Source: a virus. Taken from it: DNA of 64,000 nucleotides. How positions within the stretch are numbered: the stretch's first letter is position 1; each line of letters starts with the position of its first letter. Positions 1-59,972 of this stretch are shown in pieces. Location of the stretch: positions 1 through 64,000 of IMG/VR virus record IMGVR_UViG_3300034140_000002; one strand, given 5' to 3'. A program made the position numbers and the translations under genes. The notes beneath the pieces are model-generated. The model was not told where the DNA came from. It saw nothing but the letters and a program-made list of their open reading frames with translations, and did not search any database.

Positions 1-146
1 CGCACAAAAAACTCATCCGTATTCATGTTACGGAGGAGGCCACGCAGGACAAGCTCAGCTTGCTTCTCGGATTTGTTCTCTACAGATATGCGTGACACAA
101 CTTCACTAGAGGACATTTCAACTACTTCTAGAGCTATAGTTTTCAT
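1..146 (-). CDS. Hypothetical protein, 3' end beyond window
   Basis: The first 48 codons are visible; the frame stays open to the window edge, so the gene is truncated here. The ATG overlaps the upstream stop as ATGA, the usual translational coupling of this block. The visible part is polar and probably helical (MKTIALEVVEMSSSEVV...). I do not recognise a family. Confidence 0.6.
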   Translation of the reverse strand, partial: MKTIALEVVEMSSSEVVSRISVENKSEKQAELVLRGLLRNMNTDEFFV

Positions 147-50047: not shown

Positions 50048-51010
50048 TTAAATTTGAGCGGCTTGTGCCACTTCTGGGGTTGCTAGGGGTTTCTCTGTTG
50101 CCAGAGGTGTTACGAATGATAGTAGTGCTGGTAAGTCAACGTTGAGGAAACATTCTGTACTTCCGTTATAAATTGCATCAACCTGCTTGTAATTCTGCTT
50201 GAGGTAGGTATGGCAGGCTTGTTCTAAGTTCCACACAAGTTGTCCATCATCGAAGTAGAAAGCAGCAATGATGTCCAGTTTAGGGCCACCTGTGCGTATA
50301 ACTTCTTTGACACGTATCTCAGGCTTACGGTTAGTGATTCCAACTTTGGTAGTGTTGTTATCAGAGAGGATATATAAGTAACCTGCCTTGTTTTTACGAA
50401 AGCCGGTCTCAGCACACTTAGGACAACCTTGTCCTTGTAGGAAGTTGCTAGGTATGGCTGAGAAATCCCCATGATGCTTACAGTGAATAGTTACTTTAAC
50501 TTTGTCACCTTGATACACAGTATCTGGAAAGGTATAGTTATCGTTACTAAGCGACTCGCACTCGTTAATGAATTCCTCTTGCGTTTTGGTCTGTTTTAGG
50601 TTTCTTACAAGTTGTGCGCATTTAGGACACTGCTTACCTTTCATCCTATTAGTTGGGGACATAGAGAACACCCCATGATCTTCGACATTGCAGATAATGT
50701 CGACCTTAGTATCTTTATTCTTATATTTGACTAGGCTATGATCGTAGTGTGGCTTAGTGGCAAGGCTACGATTTATGAATTCTTGTGTTGTCAGACGTTG
50801 CGTATCCGCAGCATTTTCCTTTCCACAAGTCGGGCATCCGTTTCCTCCGCTATGAGAATTTGGGGACTGCCAAAAGAAGGTTCCATGTTTTACACAACCT
50901 ATTTCTACTTTATTTTTAGAGTCTAGGTAGACAAGTTTGGAATAATCATGTTTAATTTTGTGCTGCTCTGGCACAGTTGCCAGCCATGTTTCTGTGTTAA
51001 GTCTTTTCAT
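50048..51010 (-). CDS. Free-standing GIY-YIG homing endonuclease with zinc-ribbon repeats
   Basis: 320 residues. Three C-P-x-C... zinc ribbons (residues about 38-65, 104-136, 155-200; each with H-G-x-F and G-x-x-C-P-x-C), typical of DUF723 repeats, followed by G-Y-L-Y-I-L-S-D...T-K-V-G-I-T-N-R-K-P (GIY-YIG nuclease). It sits between the tail tube and chaperone genes and can spread by cutting empty sites. The ribosome binding site is inside a hairpin (see 51011). Confidence 0.85.
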   Translation of the reverse strand: MKRLNTETWLATVPEQHKIKHDYSKLVYLDSKNKVEIGCVKHGTFFWQSPNSHSGGNGCPTCGKENAADTQRLTTQEFINRSLATKPHYDHSLVKYKNKDTKVDIICNVEDHGVFSMSPTNRMKGKQCPKCAQLVRNLKQTKTQEEFINECESLSNDNYTFPDTVYQGDKVKVTIHCKHHGDFSAIPSNFLQGQGCPKCAETGFRKNKAGYLYILSDNNTTKVGITNRKPEIRVKEVIRTGGPKLDIIAAFYFDDGQLVWNLEQACHTYLKQNYKQVDAIYNGSTECFLNVDLPALLSFVTPLATEKPLATPEVAQAAQI

Positions 51011-51911: not shown

Positions 51912-52325
51912 TTAATTAGATTCATCCATACGGTATGGAATAATGATGGGAATGATTCGCCAGCCCGAATCAAGCATCGCGCTCTTAGCGCTAGCAGGGG
52001 CTTCAACGGATACGGGTAAGAGTGTCTTAGGGAACACAGGAAACAACTGTGCAATTTCTTCTGCAATGGCTTCACCCTGCCCAGCGCCCTTACTATCTTC
52101 ACACCACACGTTCACTTGAAAGTCACCATAAAAACGTCTCTTAGAGCCGTCTAGGGTAGCTACAATAGTGTTTGCAGGAGTGAAGAATGCCTCTAAGAAG
52201 GGTGCGTTATCAAGAGGCTTAGAAAAGGACTCACCTTCACGGGAAATCTTAAGGGGTGGGGAGTAGCTGGAAGCGAAGGCTGCGAGGGCTGTCATAAACT
52301 TTGCACGAATAATCGTTTGGGACAT
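51912..52325 (-). CDS. Tail terminator-like protein (DUF4128-type)
   Basis: 137 residues. D-F-Q-V-N-V-W-C-E-D-S-K-G-A-G-Q-G and a later W-R-I-I-P-I-I-I-P match the tail terminator/minor tail group; gene order (neck gene, terminator, tube) fits. Stops growth of the tail tube and attaches it to the head. Confidence 0.7.
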   Translation of the reverse strand: MSQTIIRAKFMTALAAFASSYSPPLKISREGESFSKPLDNAPFLEAFFTPANTIVATLDGSKRRFYGDFQVNVWCEDSKGAGQGEAIAEEIAQLFPVFPKTLLPVSVEAPASAKSAMLDSGWRIIPIIIPYRMDESN

Positions 52326-52771
52326 TAGATATATTTTCCTTTCAGATTATTAATAGCTTTGCCAGTGAACCCGTAAGCCTTAACTTTTCCACTCCACTTC
52401 CATCCGTTTGTACTTTCTTCAGCAGGCCAGCCAAGCTTGTCTGCACGATAACTATACCCCATTGCGTTCGTAAGGTAGATTGTGTTATCCTTAGTGTAAA
52501 ATAGGGACAAGTGCTGCACACCCCGGATACGCATCAAACTTTCGCTGCCTGTGAGGTCGGGGCCGTTAGGGACGGGAACAACAACTTGTCCAATAGAGAC
52601 ATGCCAGTTATTAGCAATGTCCCCGTTGGAGAAGCCGCCGTAGTTGATGTTTTTATAGCCTGTCAGTGTAACTAGCTCTGTGCCAAGGTATTCAAAAGCT
52701 TTGCACACACTAGTATTCATGCCTAAATTAGCCTTGTGTTCAAAGGCCCTAATCTGAGCTTCAAAATTCAT
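52325..52771 (-). CDS. Head-tail neck protein, HK97 gp10-like
   Basis: 148 residues. Order just before the tail terminator (one base overlap, TAATG-type). Sequence (GDIANNWHVSIGQVVVP... SLMRIRGVQHLSLFY) is beta-rich, consistent with the neck-joining family. First gene of the tail unit under the promoter at 52797. Confidence 0.65.
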   Translation of the reverse strand: MNFEAQIRAFEHKANLGMNTSVCKAFEYLGTELVTLTGYKNINYGGFSNGDIANNWHVSIGQVVVPVPNGPDLTGSESLMRIRGVQHLSLFYTKDNTIYLTNAMGYSYRADKLGWPAEESTNGWKWSGKVKAYGFTGKAINNLKGKYI

Positions 52772-52858: not shown

Positions 52859-53179
52859 CTATTTAGTAATGTCTTGAACATAATTATAAGCGTCCTTGAC
52901 AAGCGTCCTGACAGCCCCGTTAGCTTCAGTAAGCTGGATATCATAGTAGAAAAATCCTACTTGATTGGCCTGCTCAGCCGTGGGGGAGAAAGAGATGCTA
53001 CTGTCAAACAAGCTGATAACACCCGGCACCTGATAAATCTGCGAGGTCGTGTCTACAGGGTTGCGGAGAGTGTTGAGAGTCATCACAGCAGTGCAACCTG
53101 CCAAGTCTACTGGAAGCGTATTGTAAGACACTGTGATCACATCAGCGGATGTATCTCCGCGAGTTCTGTTTAGTTGCAT
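52859..53179 (-). CDS. Structural protein with BppU-like pattern, 106 aa
   Basis: MQLNRTRGDTSADVITVSYNTLPVDLAGCTAVMTL is similar in pattern to the BppU/upper baseplate family (T-R-G-D-T near start, L-x-x-C/A). Ends in a Gln-Ala helix. Last gene of the accessory virion module. Function uncertain. Confidence 0.55.
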   Translation of the reverse strand: MQLNRTRGDTSADVITVSYNTLPVDLAGCTAVMTLNTLRNPVDTTSQIYQVPGVISLFDSSISFSPTAEQANQVGFFYYDIQLTEANGAVRTLVKDAYNYVQDITK

Positions 53180-53181
53180 AT

Positions 53182-54057
53182 TTACTCTCGCTTAAATGTG
53201 ATTTTGTACTTAGGGTTTTTGAATCTAACTTTTAAATTGGCAGGTATTGCAGACACACTTCCCGGAAGGGTTGTAAGAATATAATAGGAATCATTTGCTT
53301 CAATCCAATTAATGCTTCCATACGCTGGTTGAACTACGGAACCAAGTATGTGCATGATGTCATTGACCTCGGACCAATACACACCAGCAGATGCAGGCTG
53401 ATGTAATGTAACCTGAATATTAAGACCGTCATCAGCCTCCAGCCACGAAACCATTCCAGTATTTACGCCTAATATACTGGCCGAGATGTTGTGGCTGTCT
53501 GGCTCCTCAGTATACGATGTGTTGGTAGTTACCTGCAAGAAGCTTAGTAGGGACGTAACATCGTCCGCTTCTGTCCAACTTACAACACCTACATTTACCC
53601 CTGTAAGCTCGGCAACCACTAACACTACATCATCAGCTTCTGCCCAGTTTATGCTGCCATTCAAAGGGATTGTTATTGCTGCTGACATTGACATGATGTC
53701 GCTAGATTCTGTCCATGCCATTATACCAGTACAATCTTGTGACATGTTCAATGTTACAGTTTGTGTACCTAAATCAACTCCATCTTCTCTAAGCCTGTAC
53801 GTAAAAAAGGATGTAGGTCCATCATAAGAAAAACTACCATCCTCGTAGGCAAAGAATGTACCAATTCCGGGGGGAGTCTCCACAAAGCCTGAGTACTCTT
53901 TGTTGGCGTCATCAGGTAGGTTAAGGTCATTATATAAGTAGCTAGGCCCGTTGTCTCCTACTGATGGGACAGCAGAGCCTAGTACACCAAGTCCCCTATT
54001 CCCGAAATGAAAAGAGGATGCAATAAGAGGTGTATCGAAACGGAAGCTCATTGTCAA
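53182..54057 (-). CDS. Repeat protein with [WY]-x-E-x-D-D repeats, 291 aa
   Basis: The first 110 residues are a beta-rich cap (FDTPLIASSFHFGNRGLGVL). From 113 on, seven tandem repeats of about 23 residues share W/Y-[TAL]-E-x-[AN]-D-[ID] (WTESSDI, WAEADDV, WTEADDV, YTEEPDS, WLEADDG, WSEVNDI, WIEANDS), a beta-solenoid-like arrangement. Overlaps by four bases with the next gene, which has four more copies. A host-surface or calcium-binding shaft is plausible; function unknown. Confidence 0.8.
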   Translation of the reverse strand: MTMSFRFDTPLIASSFHFGNRGLGVLGSAVPSVGDNGPSYLYNDLNLPDDANKEYSGFVETPPGIGTFFAYEDGSFSYDGPTSFFTYRLREDGVDLGTQTVTLNMSQDCTGIMAWTESSDIMSMSAAITIPLNGSINWAEADDVVLVVAELTGVNVGVVSWTEADDVTSLLSFLQVTTNTSYTEEPDSHNISASILGVNTGMVSWLEADDGLNIQVTLHQPASAGVYWSEVNDIMHILGSVVQPAYGSINWIEANDSYYILTTLPGSVSAIPANLKVRFKNPKYKITFKRE

Positions 54058-55529
54058 ACCGCCGTATATTTCTCAACACCTAGTACACCAGCGGCGTTTG
54101 ACACTACTACTACATATTGCACGCCCGGAGTAAAACCCGCATTTGAGATAGTCAACACCCCTGATGCATCCGTAGTTCTGGCTGTAAAATTACTCACATA
54201 AGTAAGTGTAGTAATATTTAACACAGTGACTGTTAAAGATGTCAAGTTGGCTAGCACACTCCCTGTGTTATTTTTAAAAGGTGCTGTGGTTATCGTGGTG
54301 ACTGTTGTGACACTCCCTGTAATAGAGGATGTATCATTGACTTCGGCCCAAGACACAGTAGAAGATATAGAAGAACTTCCCGAAACAGTGTGTGTGTCAT
54401 TAGCTTCTGTATAGGACACAGAACTTGTAATTGATGTTACAACCACATTAGTGGAAATGATATGAACATCATCTACTTCAGTATATGTGCAACTCGCTGA
54501 GACAGTAGAAAAATATATACTAGCCGTCACACTTGTTACGTCAACATCTTCTGTGTACGTAATAGTTGCTGATGGCGTACTAGCAGCAGACTCCCACGCA
54601 CCAACATCATATGCTGCGCCTTGCGGGCGGGTAGTTCCAACAATATCAGCAGACGCATTGCTGACATCCGTTGTACCCACATTAAGTAAGGGGGATGTTG
54701 TAGCAAGACGCAGATCGTGAGTACCAATACTGATGTTTTGAAAAGTACCAGTTGACAGTGCAGCGACTGAGTAATTCGTTGCCGTAGCATTGCTGTAGCA
54801 TGCTGTTTTTGTAGCGGCAATAACCCCATCTTCAGGAGCAACTACACCGCCCACATAACAGTTCTTCATAATCGCGCTGATCGAGCCGGTTATGATTCCG
54901 TAAGTCAGTGGGGTAGCGCCCAAATTGACGAGTGTGCAATTAACTACCGTCGTCCCGTTCGTGAACGCCGCGATGACAGCAGCGGCGTCGTTTTTAAGCT
55001 GGGCGATATAGCAGTTCCGCACAAAACTCGCGGCAGTGGTCATCCGGAATGCGGCTTTGATTGAGGTGTTAACCCCGTAGCTTTCAAAGATGCAGTTATC
55101 GGTAGTGATATTTGTAACGCCTGCGCCAGAAGTATAAAAAGCAGGTTGCGCAGTGCTGCCCGTATTAGTATTGGCAACCTGTAGCTTCGTAATCCGCATG
55201 AAAGACTGCTGGACGTTGATTGTCGCACCCGCCGCCGTGCATCGGATTGCCGCCCCGACTGATGCGTTGTATCGCCCCGGATTCGTGGCGCGGTTCGCGT
55301 GGTCCATAAACGAGCAGCCCGGAGCGGCGGTCAATTCAGGGTAGCGTGTGGCGTCAGCGGTCTTTCCACTAAAAACGATGCTTGCGGTAATTACGAATTC
55401 CTGATTAAGCAACAAGCCACGGTGAACTTGGTCAGCCGTAATCATATTGGTAGGGACAGAAGCCCACCATGTAGGGATGTCTGGGTAAGCCCCTCCAGAG
55501 CCAATAGTCGATTCAATAATGGTTGCCAT
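54054..55529 (-). CDS. Beta-helix-like virion protein, 491 aa
   Basis: Residues 60-310 carry beta-helix repeats (N-x-x-F/I, V-x-N-C, T-V-V-N-C-T-L) as in pectate-lyase-type tailspikes. From about 315, four repeats (YTEDVDV, YTEVDDV, YTEANDT, WAEVNDT), 21-24 residues each, match those in the next gene. The C-terminal 80 residues are an Ig/fibre-tip-like domain (TVTVLNITTLTYVSNFTARTTDASG). Polysaccharide binding or cutting is plausible, no catalytic site seen. Confidence 0.7.
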   Translation of the reverse strand: MATIIESTIGSGGAYPDIPTWWASVPTNMITADQVHRGLLLNQEFVITASIVFSGKTADATRYPELTAAPGCSFMDHANRATNPGRYNASVGAAIRCTAAGATINVQQSFMRITKLQVANTNTGSTAQPAFYTSGAGVTNITTDNCIFESYGVNTSIKAAFRMTTAASFVRNCYIAQLKNDAAAVIAAFTNGTTVVNCTLVNLGATPLTYGIITGSISAIMKNCYVGGVVAPEDGVIAATKTACYSNATATNYSVAALSTGTFQNISIGTHDLRLATTSPLLNVGTTDVSNASADIVGTTRPQGAAYDVGAWESAASTPSATITYTEDVDVTSVTASIYFSTVSASCTYTEVDDVHIISTNVVVTSITSSVSYTEANDTHTVSGSSSISSTVSWAEVNDTSSITGSVTTVTTITTAPFKNNTGSVLANLTSLTVTVLNITTLTYVSNFTARTTDASGVLTISNAGFTPGVQYVVVVSNAAGVLGVEKYTAV

Positions 55530-55543
55530 TGAGATGCCTTATA

Positions 55544-56719
55544 TTATACTGTGAAAGAGGCTGACACCCAAGTGTTAGCTGATGGTATGGTCACTAATTG
55601 AGGGGTTACGGTAGCCAAAAACACGTCACTAATAGGTTCCACCATAACTGTGCGAGAACCTAGCTTACTCGTGACCTCGCAAGACCAGCCAGAAGATGTT
55701 TCTACCACATTTCTGAAGCTCAGCCCGATATTAATGCCCCCCACCAAGTCCACATTAGGGTCTTGATCCCCAGAGTGCTCCGTGAAGAGTGGGTATCCTT
55801 TACCTATCGTGAAAGTGCCGTAAGGGTAGCTGCCAGTAATCTCAGCCATAATAGAGCCAGTACTATGATCGCCATTATTCCAAGCAAACGCAAAACCGCG
55901 CTTAGCTGTACGTAGAGCATTCACAGCATCAATGTTCTCTTGGAACACAACAAAACCATCTTGCCTTCCGCAGCACCAGCCTAACCACGGAATTTTATTG
56001 CTTGTGTTACTAACGTATGCTATACAATCTTGTAGCACAGATACTTTACCACCTCCGTCCTCAGGGGATAAAAACGGTGAATTTGCCACAGGTACAGTTT
56101 CAAGAGCGCCTAACCAGTTTGCCACTGCCACGTTACCAATTGTACTGTACCTCCAACGGGGGCGGTCAGGGTAGATAGCAGCAAAGAGATGCTTACGGCG
56201 AATGCCAAAAGTCATAGTCCCCCACCCGCCCATAGAACCTCCAGTTAGGCAGGTTTTGTTAGGTAGACAAGGCACGTTTGTGCTTGCCCACTTCATTAAT
56301 GACTCTAGACGACGTTGTGTCACAAGAGCTACGTCTGACCCATAATTAGGTGTGTTTTTAAACCCCATCCACATGCTTTCACGGCGAGCGGAATTCGTTA
56401 CATTTAGGCCGTATTGGTCCACTGGCCTGAGTAACACGATAGAGGTATCAGTGCTGTTGACCAAACTAAACCTAAATGTGTTGTAAGTACCAACAGCAAG
56501 GTCATTACTAACTATTGCGTCGTATTGACGACCTGTGCTAGTGTTCTGTCCGCCACTACCGTGAAGTTGCAATATCAGAATTTTAGACGCTGTGGCTCCG
56601 GGGGTTCCACTACCTTCTAGTGCAACACTTACTGAATCGAAGGGGGCAATTTTATAACGGCCACCCTTCATTACTGTGCCGGAGGCTCCGTTGTAGATTT
56701 TAGCTACCGGCGATGCCAT
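55544..56719 (-). CDS. Alpha/beta-hydrolase esterase, virion-associated
   Basis: Start at MASPVAKIYNG, where ATG shares a base with the previous stop (TAATG). G-G-S162-M-G-G is the nucleophile elbow; H-G-S-G-G (53-57) the oxyanion loop; D254 (C-G-R-Q-D-G) and H285 (N-N-G-D-H) complete a Ser-Asp-His triad. An additional C-terminal beta domain (residues about 300-391) may attach it. Esterases of phage spikes deacetylate capsule or O-antigen; the substrate here is unknown. Confidence 0.78.
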   Translation of the reverse strand: MASPVAKIYNGASGTVMKGGRYKIAPFDSVSVALEGSGTPGATASKILILQLHGSGGQNTSTGRQYDAIVSNDLAVGTYNTFRFSLVNSTDTSIVLLRPVDQYGLNVTNSARRESMWMGFKNTPNYGSDVALVTQRRLESLMKWASTNVPCLPNKTCLTGGSMGGWGTMTFGIRRKHLFAAIYPDRPRWRYSTIGNVAVANWLGALETVPVANSPFLSPEDGGGKVSVLQDCIAYVSNTSNKIPWLGWCCGRQDGFVVFQENIDAVNALRTAKRGFAFAWNNGDHSTGSIMAEITGSYPYGTFTIGKGYPLFTEHSGDQDPNVDLVGGINIGLSFRNVVETSSGWSCEVTSKLGSRTVMVEPISDVFLATVTPQLVTIPSANTWVSASFTV

Positions 56720-57111
56720 TAGGCGTTTCCGCGAGTGGCAGTCCAAGCTGTTACAGCAACAGTTACACCTACTGTGATAGATGCTGTATTCAGAATCATA
56801 TCCGTGCCAGCAGTGCCAGCCGAGCCATCAATAACATGAGTCGTACCGTCTGCCTTAGTCACACGGAACCATGTAGCAGTTCCTACGGCTGCACCAGTAG
56901 TGTTAGCAGGAAGTGTAGGGGACAGTACAGCCGCAGATGCCGCAGGGGCGAATGGGCTACCTAGAGTAAACTCTGCAAGCAGATTGGTAGCAGTGCCACC
57001 AGTTGCTGGGCGAGCACCGTCATAAATACGCAGTTTAGCACCAGCACCTGCAAAAGTTGTAATTGCATCCATTTGCGCGTTGCGCAGTGTTACGTTATAG
57101 CCAGTTGCCAT
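56719..57111 (-). CDS. Virion-associated beta protein, 130 aa
   Basis: MATGYNVTLRNAQMDAITTFAGAGAKLRIYDGARPATGG: beta-rich, Ala/Thr-rich protein of a type common in phages of betaproteobacteria (from memory), unknown role. Starts after TTTAAAGGAAACAAAA. Coupled with the esterase. Confidence 0.65.
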   Translation of the reverse strand: MATGYNVTLRNAQMDAITTFAGAGAKLRIYDGARPATGGTATNLLAEFTLGSPFAPAASAAVLSPTLPANTTGAAVGTATWFRVTKADGTTHVIDGSAGTAGTDMILNTASITVGVTVAVTAWTATRGNA

Positions 57112-57132: not shown

Positions 57133-59562
57133 TTAGATTACTATCACAGGGTGTATCGAGCCAACAATCTCACCGTTACTATTAAAAATCACTGCGGTGT
57201 ACTTCGCACCACTTGTCAAGGAGTTGTCTACAATTTCAATTACTCCGGCTGAATCACTTTGTAAATTAGAATAAAACTTAGTGTTGCTCTCGCTACTCAA
57301 GGTAACTGTCAGCCCCTTTAAATCTCTAAAGTGAATATTCGTAATCAGCATTTTTGCAATTGGTGTTACAGGTGGTGGTGGAACAACTACCACAGGGGGT
57401 AATGTCTCACTAGGAGGTTGCGGGGGTGTTACAACTGCCGAGGTGCGAGGAACAATAGCAAACTGAGGGCTAGTATTGTAGTCAGGTTTAGTCTTGCGAC
57501 TCATAAATAGTGCCCAAGCCTTGCTGCCACCTTCATATCCACTGTCTGTTGCATAGGCCAAGGCAGGTTGGTAATTAGATGGAAAGCCCGCTGTAGCCCC
57601 CGGATAGCCTGTAAGTTCAACCACAGGGCTGCAAACAAGCTCTGCTACCTCTTTAGTATTATCCCAACATTGCTTTAGGGTTTTGTAAAAAGGTTGTGCC
57701 AGCTTAGCGGTTGTATCAACCGCAGCGGAGTCTTTAACTCGGATAACGTACATTGCCGCATCATTGGGGCAATACCCATCTGCAATCATCCTACCTACTT
57801 GAAACTTAGCTTTCCACTTAAGCAGTCTGCCAGCCTCTTCACAACCTAGTTCTGCTGCATGCCCTACTCCTTGCGTAAAGAAGTCATCCATATAAAGTGA
57901 CATGCCAACTCCTGCGATACCTTTAACTGCATAAGGTAAGCCCGGCGCTGCATCCAAAATCATGCCCAACTCGTTGTGTACAACTGGGTCAACTACTGTT
58001 ACTCTGCGCTCTACAACCTTTACACCGCTGGACGAACCATCCGTAAAGTTAATCCGGTAGTACTCCATAGTGTTATCCAGCCAATACTTGAAAGCGGTCT
58101 TTTGAGGGTGGCTGTCTGGAGTGATATAAGCAGCTTCTGCTAAAGTCCTAATAGACCACCCTTGGCCCCTTATTTGGTCAGACTTAACCCAGCCTTTTTC
58201 AAACATCCTGTAATACGGGTTGCTTCGGTAGGCATTATAATTGCACCAGAATAGAAGTTCCTCTAGGTAGAAATAATCTCCTGTGAGCAAGTAGGGTATA
58301 TAGGCAAAGGCAGGTTGATGTGATGTATCATTCTCTAATTTGCTAGCAGTGACTACAGGAGGTAATTTCTCATACTGCTTAGTGGCAGGGTTGAGGGTGT
58401 CACCCGGATTTCCAAGTATAGTCGCGTAAGGATACTTGATAACATCCAGCATAGTGTCGTCAGGGAGGCGTCTGTGAGCAGCCCAACTTCCTGCAACGTT
58501 TGCTGATTCTAGCATCAAGGCTTTAGCACGTTTATCCCCACTAATAATAGTGGCTGCGTAACAATCGGGTGCCAAGCCAATATCGGGACGACCGCCCGGA
58601 GCGGACATTACAGGTTGAAAACGCCCTGTAGCCATAGGCTCGAATGAGAACTTTTTCAAATCGGCTGCATAGCTTGCAAGAGTTATCTCCGACATTACAA
58701 TAGACGGGTCGTAGTTAGGAACAGCTTTGGTAGCTATGAAGTATGCCGAATTATGCTTAACATGCAGACTAGGTTTGCCACCTTGCCAGAAAGTCTTCTT
58801 CCAACGAGCGCCGGGAAAATGCACCAGCCCTAACTTACTGTAGACTTCTACACCGTCTGAAATAATCTTCACATCGTAGGTGATGTCAACTTGGGCCGGG
58901 ATCGGTGCTGGATTAGGTACGGCTTCTGTAGGGGCTAGGAATTTGAAACCGTTAGTGGTGTAGGTGTTAGTGTGCTCTAACGTTACGTCGAACTTGGCTT
59001 GACCTGTTGAATACGTACGCTCGTTAATCTGCACCCTGAGGAAAGGATGTTTATCGCCTCTTGCAGAAATCAAATCTTCAAATCCAATAAGCTCCACTGC
59101 AACCGGGCCAAGTAACCAACCCTTACTGTTATGGGCTTGAGCACGATATTCTATTCCTGCCTCAACCACCACGACCTCTACGTCTTTTGCACGTAACTGG
59201 TGATCTGGGGCTTCCGTCTTCAAAGATCGGATAAGGAACATTTCTCCGTTTTTATGAGTAACACCACTGATAATGCCGTGACGTACCGAGCCATCTTTGT
59301 GGGTAGCTTTAACATCTAATTGGAGGGGGATATCTTCAATCCCTGTGATACGTCCTACAAGAGTATCCGTAGGAGCTAACTCGCCAATCTTGAACACTTG
59401 CCCGAATGTGAATGGAGATACCTCTGCCACATCTTCAAAAACTACTGTTGTAATTGCTCCGCCAACAGGTACACTGGGGGATGTGAAAACAGGGGCAACA
59501 TACTCGGGTAATTTAATAGCTGGGGTGCCGGGTGTTTGCAAAGGGGTTGGTGTAATTGCCAT
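57133..59562 (-). CDS. Putative carbohydrate-active virion protein, alpha/alpha-toroid type, 809 aa
   Basis: Residues about 20-270 are beta-rich (RIFT-like barrel: TVVFEDVAEVSPFTFGQVFKIGELAPTD). Residues 300-640 are helical with Trp/His/Tyr patterns (LPDDTMLDVIKYPYAT, TSHQPAFAYIPYLLTG, FFTQGVGHAAELG), as in alpha/alpha-toroid lyases (PcRGLX/YetA-like). A Pro-rich linker (PPSETLPPVVVVPPPPV) leads to a C-terminal 70-residue beta domain. Polysaccharide lyase or binding protein is inferred. It overlaps none of the head genes but lies just after the head closure gene. Confidence 0.55.
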   Translation of the reverse strand: MAITPTPLQTPGTPAIKLPEYVAPVFTSPSVPVGGAITTVVFEDVAEVSPFTFGQVFKIGELAPTDTLVGRITGIEDIPLQLDVKATHKDGSVRHGIISGVTHKNGEMFLIRSLKTEAPDHQLRAKDVEVVVVEAGIEYRAQAHNSKGWLLGPVAVELIGFEDLISARGDKHPFLRVQINERTYSTGQAKFDVTLEHTNTYTTNGFKFLAPTEAVPNPAPIPAQVDITYDVKIISDGVEVYSKLGLVHFPGARWKKTFWQGGKPSLHVKHNSAYFIATKAVPNYDPSIVMSEITLASYAADLKKFSFEPMATGRFQPVMSAPGGRPDIGLAPDCYAATIISGDKRAKALMLESANVAGSWAAHRRLPDDTMLDVIKYPYATILGNPGDTLNPATKQYEKLPPVVTASKLENDTSHQPAFAYIPYLLTGDYFYLEELLFWCNYNAYRSNPYYRMFEKGWVKSDQIRGQGWSIRTLAEAAYITPDSHPQKTAFKYWLDNTMEYYRINFTDGSSSGVKVVERRVTVVDPVVHNELGMILDAAPGLPYAVKGIAGVGMSLYMDDFFTQGVGHAAELGCEEAGRLLKWKAKFQVGRMIADGYCPNDAAMYVIRVKDSAAVDTTAKLAQPFYKTLKQCWDNTKEVAELVCSPVVELTGYPGATAGFPSNYQPALAYATDSGYEGGSKAWALFMSRKTKPDYNTSPQFAIVPRTSAVVTPPQPPSETLPPVVVVPPPPVTPIAKMLITNIHFRDLKGLTVTLSSESNTKFYSNLQSDSAGVIEIVDNSLTSGAKYTAVIFNSNGEIVGSIHPVIVI

Positions 59563-59576
59563 ATTTGCCTCAATAA

Positions 59577-59972
59577 TTATTTACGGATGTACATTTCGTA
59601 CAGGATATTATCTTCGGCTGATGTGTTGTACTCTTTGACTGCTACAATTTTCCAGCGTGCATTATTAATTATTACGTAATCGCCTGTAGGATTTGCCAAC
59701 ACAGCGTCTGCAAATACATCTGCTTTTTCAGTTGGACGAATGTACAGGAGTTGGTCACCCTCTAGTATTTGTGAATTAGCATTGCTGGTAATTCCGTTAG
59801 TAGGGCGTGGAAGTTCTAGCTTGATCGCTTGTACAGAGATTTCTGTAGTGGGGGTGGATATAGTTCCATTGGAATCATCTGCCACAGGCTCACCAATAGA
59901 GTAGTAAGTAGTAGTGAATCCAAAGTCTGAGAAGAACTCCCCAATCATATTGTGGAAGTCACTGAATCTCAT
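59577..59972 (-). CDS. Head closure/stopper protein
   Basis: 131 residues. N-terminal short helix then beta (TYYSIGEPVADDSNGTISTPTTEISVQAIKLELP), with Q-L-L-Y-I-R-P and W-K-I-V-A-V-K-E-Y at the end, typical of head-closure proteins. Overlaps the upstream connector by 4 bases. Closes the portal after packaging. Confidence 0.7.
   Translation of the reverse strand: MRFSDFHNMIGEFFSDFGFTTTYYSIGEPVADDSNGTISTPTTEISVQAIKLELPRPTNGITSNANSQILEGDQLLYIRPTEKADVFADAVLANPTGDYVIINNARWKIVAVKEYNTSAEDNILYEMYIRK

Follow-up and report, generated by a model that had tools for sequence, protein, structure and literature searches.

Curvibacter phage P26059A encodes, in its gene 0007, a protein with T-E-x-x-D repeats of 21 residues. 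This protein matches phrog_38872 (1.5e-15), a PHROG family of unknown function, and its gene sits between the portal and protease genes. A second known system is that of the Barbaviruses, phages of Rheinheimera, in which a gene cassette encodes a phrog_3758 protein, a lectin-like protein with the C-terminal domain, and a protein that combines an Ig-like N-terminal domain with tandem repeats; the two adjacent genes (gp131/gp132, or gp138/gp139 in Barba19A) have the repeat in common. The Barbavirus repeat has a period of 24 residues and reads NISIADxLPxLxS. Repeats of the VCBS and cadherin-like (Big_9) type start with a strand-E-D-loop-strand arrangement (GTVTED...GTLTV), and this likeness to the repeats described below serves as a lead only: our repeats are not matched by these models in Pfam or NCBIfam, and their units are one fifth the length. 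Tandem-repeat stalks are an already known kind of phage part. In crAss-like phages, BACON-domain tandem repeats are described as evolving by duplication and horizontal transfer (PMC6949934). They are like the present repeats in belonging to tail-associated phage proteins, but a BACON unit is a whole domain of a known family, whereas the unit described here is 21-24 residues long and without a match to any known family.

Results

The window that we analysed comprises bases 1-64000 of a 93,664-base IMG/VR virus record. PHROG matches identified a tailed phage, with genes for portal, head protease, decoration, major head and head closure proteins at the right-hand end, followed by a tail terminator, a major tail protein and a tape measure protein of 1,789 aa, the whole series being on the minus strand. 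Since no sheath was matched among the proteins scanned, the phage is likely a siphovirus. Between the major tail protein and the tail assembly genes lies an ORF of 320 aa (50048-51010) in which Cys-rich segments recur. It has a relative at the matching place in another contig (L030:9553-10494) and, as judged from its sequence, looks like an insertion of a homing-type nuclease.

Six genes without routine annotation form a cassette, with head closure (59577-59972) on one side and tail completion (52325-52771) on the other:

57133..59562, minus strand: 809-aa protein with a weak rhamnogalacturonan-lyase-like (PcRGLX) N-terminus
56719..57111, minus strand: virion structural protein, PHROG match to phrog_3758
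55544..56746, minus strand: alpha/beta-hydrolase-like protein, Peptidase_S9 match below the cut-off
54054-55529, minus strand: gene B, 491-aa ORF
53182-54057, minus strand: gene A, 291-aa ORF
52859..53179, minus strand: small protein of phrog_1084, weakly BppU_N-like

The location of genes A and B among virion genes suggests that their products are part of the virion. Members of phrog_3758 lie beside the cassette in L030 and the Barbaviruses too, and beside a repeat gene in L117, so that this virion protein keeps turning up next to repeat genes in unrelated phages. This recurrence suggests either that the cassette is mobile as a unit or that the phrog_3758 protein is its platform. The lyase-like 809-aa protein has a homologue (L034:6192-8873) that is fused to an Ig-like domain of the gene A type and to a different tandem repeat (SPTGIASS...).

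For gene A, the ATG at 54051 is a more likely start than the TTG at 54057, giving 289 aa as in its relative in L030. The two proteins are composed of the following parts:

53743..54051, minus strand: gene A, N-terminal Ig-like domain (MSFRFDTPLIASS...GPSYLYND...YEDGSF), with 79-80% identity to L030 and about 40% to Barbavirus
53272..53733, minus strand: gene A, repeat array of seven 21-23-residue units, aa 109-262 (from motif, profile and DSSP of the model)
53185..53271, minus strand: gene A, short basic C-terminal tail (SAIPANLKVRFKNPKYKITFKRE), similar to the Barba tail (APQNLIYIKPKPRFITLR)
54582..55529, minus strand: gene B, N-terminal right-handed beta-helix, aa 1-316, with a choice-of-anchor Q segment at its end (aa 270-314)
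54300..54572, minus strand: gene B, repeat array of four 21-24-residue units, aa 320-410 (from motif and profile)
54057..54299, minus strand: gene B, C-terminal Ig/FN3-like domain, aa 411-491, common to L030, L034 and Barba gp131/gp138

A Big_9-like match to the L034 homologue of the gene A N-terminal domain fell below the cut-off.

A preliminary description of this DNA had reported eleven [WY]-x-E-x-[ND]-D repeats in two adjacent genes, and these were indeed recovered, as [WY]-x-E-x-x-D. The seven cores of gene A start at residues 115, 138, 161, 182, 205, 228 and 251 (spacings 23, 23, 21, 23, 23 and 23) and the four of gene B at residues 325, 349, 373 and 394 (spacings 24, 24 and 21). This is beyond what 20,000 shuffles per protein yielded, with means of 0.11 (gene A) and 0.05 (gene B) matches and maxima of 3 and 2, while none of the other ORFs of the 93,664-base record had more than two isolated motif matches. 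Counting the W/Y as position 0, 11/11 units have both E(+2) and D(+5). The proposed core W/Y-T/A-E-x-N/A/D-D therefore holds for these two acids but not at +4, which varies (WTESSD in unit 1 and YTEEPD in unit 4 of gene A). The arrays contain 19 (gene A) and 10 (gene B) acids and not a single Lys or Arg. The DNA of the units shows an identity of only about 44%, both inside gene A and across the two genes. This indicates that they are not recent copies and that the motif is under selection, and it rules out a recent gene conversion between the two arrays.

Relatives were gathered from IMG/VR with a gene A search, an alignment search and a DNA pattern search. The pattern (a pair of EA[ND]D motifs at a spacing of 21 residues) was found in 111 stretches, against an estimate of about one from base frequencies. 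The resulting TE-x-x-D family comprises 490 units from 57 ORFs of IMG/VR contigs, with as many as about 40 motif copies within one protein, and has the consensus [AG]-[TS]-[LA]-[AS]-[IVW]-T-E-A-[DN]-D-[TS]-[LV]-[SA]-[AS]-[TA]-[GA]-[TA]-[VL]-x-[IV]-x. Its period is 21 residues in most members and slightly longer in the window (21-24). A family profile built from 260 three-unit stretches of other phage contigs, and none of the window, matched gene A (P0001) with E=7.8e-24 and gene B (P0002) with 4.9e-13, as compared to 0.58 for the best of 400 shuffles. This verified that one repeat family is present in both genes. The same profile gave no match to the Barbavirus proteins P0008 and P0009, and the Barbavirus repeat, with about 5% identity to that of the window and no E-x-x-D pair, is unrelated in sequence.

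Neither Pfam nor NCBIfam holds a model for this repeat, Pfam matches being at chance level, and PDB sequence searches with the single proteins and with the repeat profile gave no meaningful match; a known family with settled function was thus not found. Among the candidates considered, Fil_haemagg reached 20.9 bits in L092, just under the cut-off of 21.5, and SPOCS_spoVID-N passed its cut-off in L052 alone, as a sum of weak pieces; both are absent for the window proteins. PHROGs contributed only the unnamed phrog_38872, which besides the P26059A protein matched L002 (1.2e-6) and, marginally, gene A (0.015). The P26059A protein differs from the proteins of the window in its N-terminal region and in being encoded by a single repeat gene. 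Bacterial or archaeal relatives were not detected in two scans of one genome per species, within the sensitivity of these scans, nor were relatives found in a plasmid search. In addition, our literature search retrieved no publication on the repeat. The TE-x-x-D repeat is therefore a widespread, undescribed phage repeat family, larger than the preliminary description had supposed.

The family units were collected by their motif, and invariance was therefore measured on 265 units that had neither been required to match nor been used for ascertainment, a match having been demanded of their lattice neighbours alone. In these, D(+5) was present in 265/265 and E(+2) in 97%, the remainder being D, while no other position exceeded 64%; each unit had about 2.9 acidic and 0.46 basic residues. 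Since position 0 (I, V, W or A) and position +1 (T in 64%) vary, W/Y is characteristic of a subfamily, and E-x-x-D of the family as such. The invariant acidic pair likely has a role, either in cation binding or in capping of a turn.

The repeat is combined with a variety of other domains. In gene B and L020 its partner is a right-handed beta-helix. As read from sequence, it is joined to LamG-like N-terminal domains in L003, L004, L005, L021 and L043, to an SGNH-hydrolase-like domain in L045 and to a beta-helix-like domain in L119. Conversely, homologues of the gene B beta-helix in L007 and L010 carry other, unrelated repeats in the same slot, and L034 has the C-terminal domain with FN3 domains instead of repeats. 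Such an interchange of domains is as expected for a stalk or linker of receptor-interaction proteins. The repeat gene of L089 adjoins a tail protein gene (phrog_6013).

The repeat proteins of L002, L003, L004, L005, L006, L043, L052, L057, L071, L082, L086, L101, L116 and L118 share a type of C-terminus, in which a short acidic-then-leucine peptide (e.g. REEEDIELLLLAM, EEDDAIAVLLLAA or REEDWLL) follows a charged, often coiled-coil-like stretch. This peptide, which the window proteins lack, may be a docking or assembly signal. In L098 (3201-4066) the array is divided between two overlapping frames, reflecting a frameshifted gene or a sequencing error.

Structure models were computed from alignments that left out the phages collection. 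AlphaFold modelled gene A with low confidence (mean pLDDT 52, about 58 in the repeat part). In this low-confidence model, DSSP assigned two strands to each unit, the first strand ending at the E and the D lying at the turn. The best Foldseek match of this model, Barba19A gp139, was not taken as proof of relationship (TM about 0.25, pLDDT 52). For gene B, the model has a good beta-helix at residues 1-300 (pLDDT about 85) and a good Ig-like domain at 411-491, with only about 35 for the repeat array between them. The beta-helix matched a pectin methylesterase (Foldseek E 9.5e-4, prob 1.00), and its fold resembles pectin methylesterases and tailspikes. Furthermore, NF041518 scored above its cut-off at residues 270-314, showing the helix-end signature of a right-handed beta-helix. 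By fold resemblance only, gene B is a putative polysaccharide depolymerase. Of the solenoid or hairpin array that had been proposed for the repeats, the two strands per unit are predicted at low confidence, while a beta-solenoid is not confidently predicted. A common ancestor of the two genes, likewise proposed, applies to the repeats but not to the ends of the proteins, since the beta-helix and Ig-like C-terminal domain of gene B are unrelated to the Ig-like N-terminal domain and short basic tail of gene A.

The number of repeats differs among relatives. The nearest one, the 19.7-kb contig L030, has a matching cassette with one unit per gene, compared to seven plus four in the window. In L030 (2601-4341) a propeller-like protein of 472 aa and a cupin-like protein of 109 aa take the place of the hydrolase-like gene, as judged from their sequences, so that the cassette would swap whole surface proteins. 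The Barbavirus cassette, which belongs to a myovirus and lies at the end of the tail module, varies too: Barba18A gp132 has nine motif-matched units around a LamG-like domain, whereas Barba19A has six and lacks this domain. Specifically, Barba19A carries a natural in-frame deletion of 789 bp that removes the LamG-like domain and three repeats (L028:37190-38791 versus L013:5998-6810). Both ends of the deletion have GATAGCAAT, where units 1 and 4 begin. At least 80% of the long form is present in 111/115 records. Because this loss runs from repeat to repeat, the repeats act as deletion seams.

Discussion

In the reading that we favour, with a probability of roughly 0.55, the repeat serves surface proteins of phage virions, adhesins or depolymerases, as a modular stalk or linker made of beta-hairpins. 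Each unit of 21-24 residues would fold into two strands and place the invariant E-x-x-D in or next to the turn of the hairpin, and tandem units would build an extended, strongly acidic rod. Between the docking end and an adhesin or depolymerase domain, most likely one that binds or cleaves sugars, such as the beta-helix of gene B or the Ig-like domain of gene A, the rod would thereby keep a distance. Neighbouring genes would share the unit because genes of a receptor-interaction cassette duplicate and exchange segments, with the repeats as recombination seams. Several observations speak against a stalk. The fold and extended shape are uncertain (pLDDT about 58 and 35 for the repeats of genes A and B, respectively), and a passive spacer would not usually combine invariant acids with a hydrophobic core of weak conservation. 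In addition, one unit per gene suffices in L030, which counts against length as the sole role.

The invariant acids could instead point to cation binding as the main function, with the E-x-x-D ladder offering one divalent-cation (Ca2+) site per unit and the array forming a fibre stiffened by calcium, in the manner of cadherin-like and RTX adhesins. The near-complete conservation of D and E, the excess of acids and the lack of Lys and Arg from the window arrays fit such a ladder, and stacked acids, if facing each other, would need neutralising. Cation binding by the pair is therefore plausible and a reasonable guess, but as the main function we regard it as rather unlikely: known Ca2+-binding repeats (RTX, cadherin, VCBS) were unmatched in Pfam, NCBIfam and PDB, the Barbavirus repeat at the equivalent place has no invariant acid, so that the cassette does not need one, and an E/D pair could instead serve to cap a turn through hydrogen bonds. 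At the other extreme, the arrays might be low-complexity sequence that lacks a specific function and has spread through slippage and recombination. Although relatives do have alternative repeat types or FN3 domains in the same slot, E and D are invariant at a DNA identity of only 44% between the window units, which argues that selection keeps the motif and makes this explanation very improbable.

The sharing of one repeat by two neighbours could also reflect a pairing code, in which the arrays of genes A and B dock, with each other or with the same partner, co-assemble into one fibre, as the preliminary description had suggested, and co-evolve. In L030 and Barba the repeats indeed look matched within a phage. 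Between genes A and B of L030 the units have 78% identity (dN 0.13, dS 1.28), albeit over a tiny sample of 19 codons, and for unit 1 of its gene A the identity to the window unit is as low as 28%, beside a domain with 80%. Barba gp131 and gp132 share a repeat type of their own, though their units were picked by motif, and sharing between two genes also occurs in L119 and L045. In the window itself, however, the identity across genes (30%) is not above that to L030 (33%). Moreover, the repeat occurs in two ORFs at only about five of roughly 100 surveyed loci (among the profile matches, the window, L030, L045, L119 and possibly L098 with its overlapping frames), most of the phages having just one repeat gene. 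In L119 the repeats and C-terminal part are duplicated between adjacent genes (51% identity over 261 aa), and since the whole C-terminal part is included, this sharing is a partial gene duplication. Duplication and recombination account for sharing without contact. For these reasons we prefer duplication and segment exchange within the cassette over docking between the two proteins, and consider a pairing code improbable. Slightly more doubtful still is a combination of these ideas, in which Glu-x-x-Asp hairpins of 21 residues form a cation-bound ladder and matched neighbouring arrays zip into a composite receptor-binding fibre, with the repeat type matched per phage.

With the modular stalk or linker as the preferred reading, what is new is a unit that has no Pfam or NCBIfam model and no solved relative, and whose two invariant acids are not predicted by a simple spacer. 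With the repeat profile, putative receptor-interaction proteins could be picked out in many phages that lack annotation, because a candidate binding or enzyme domain usually lies N-terminal to the repeats. Furthermore, the idea that neighbouring phage genes exchange receptor-binding and enzyme domains at seams formed by short repeats can now be tested.
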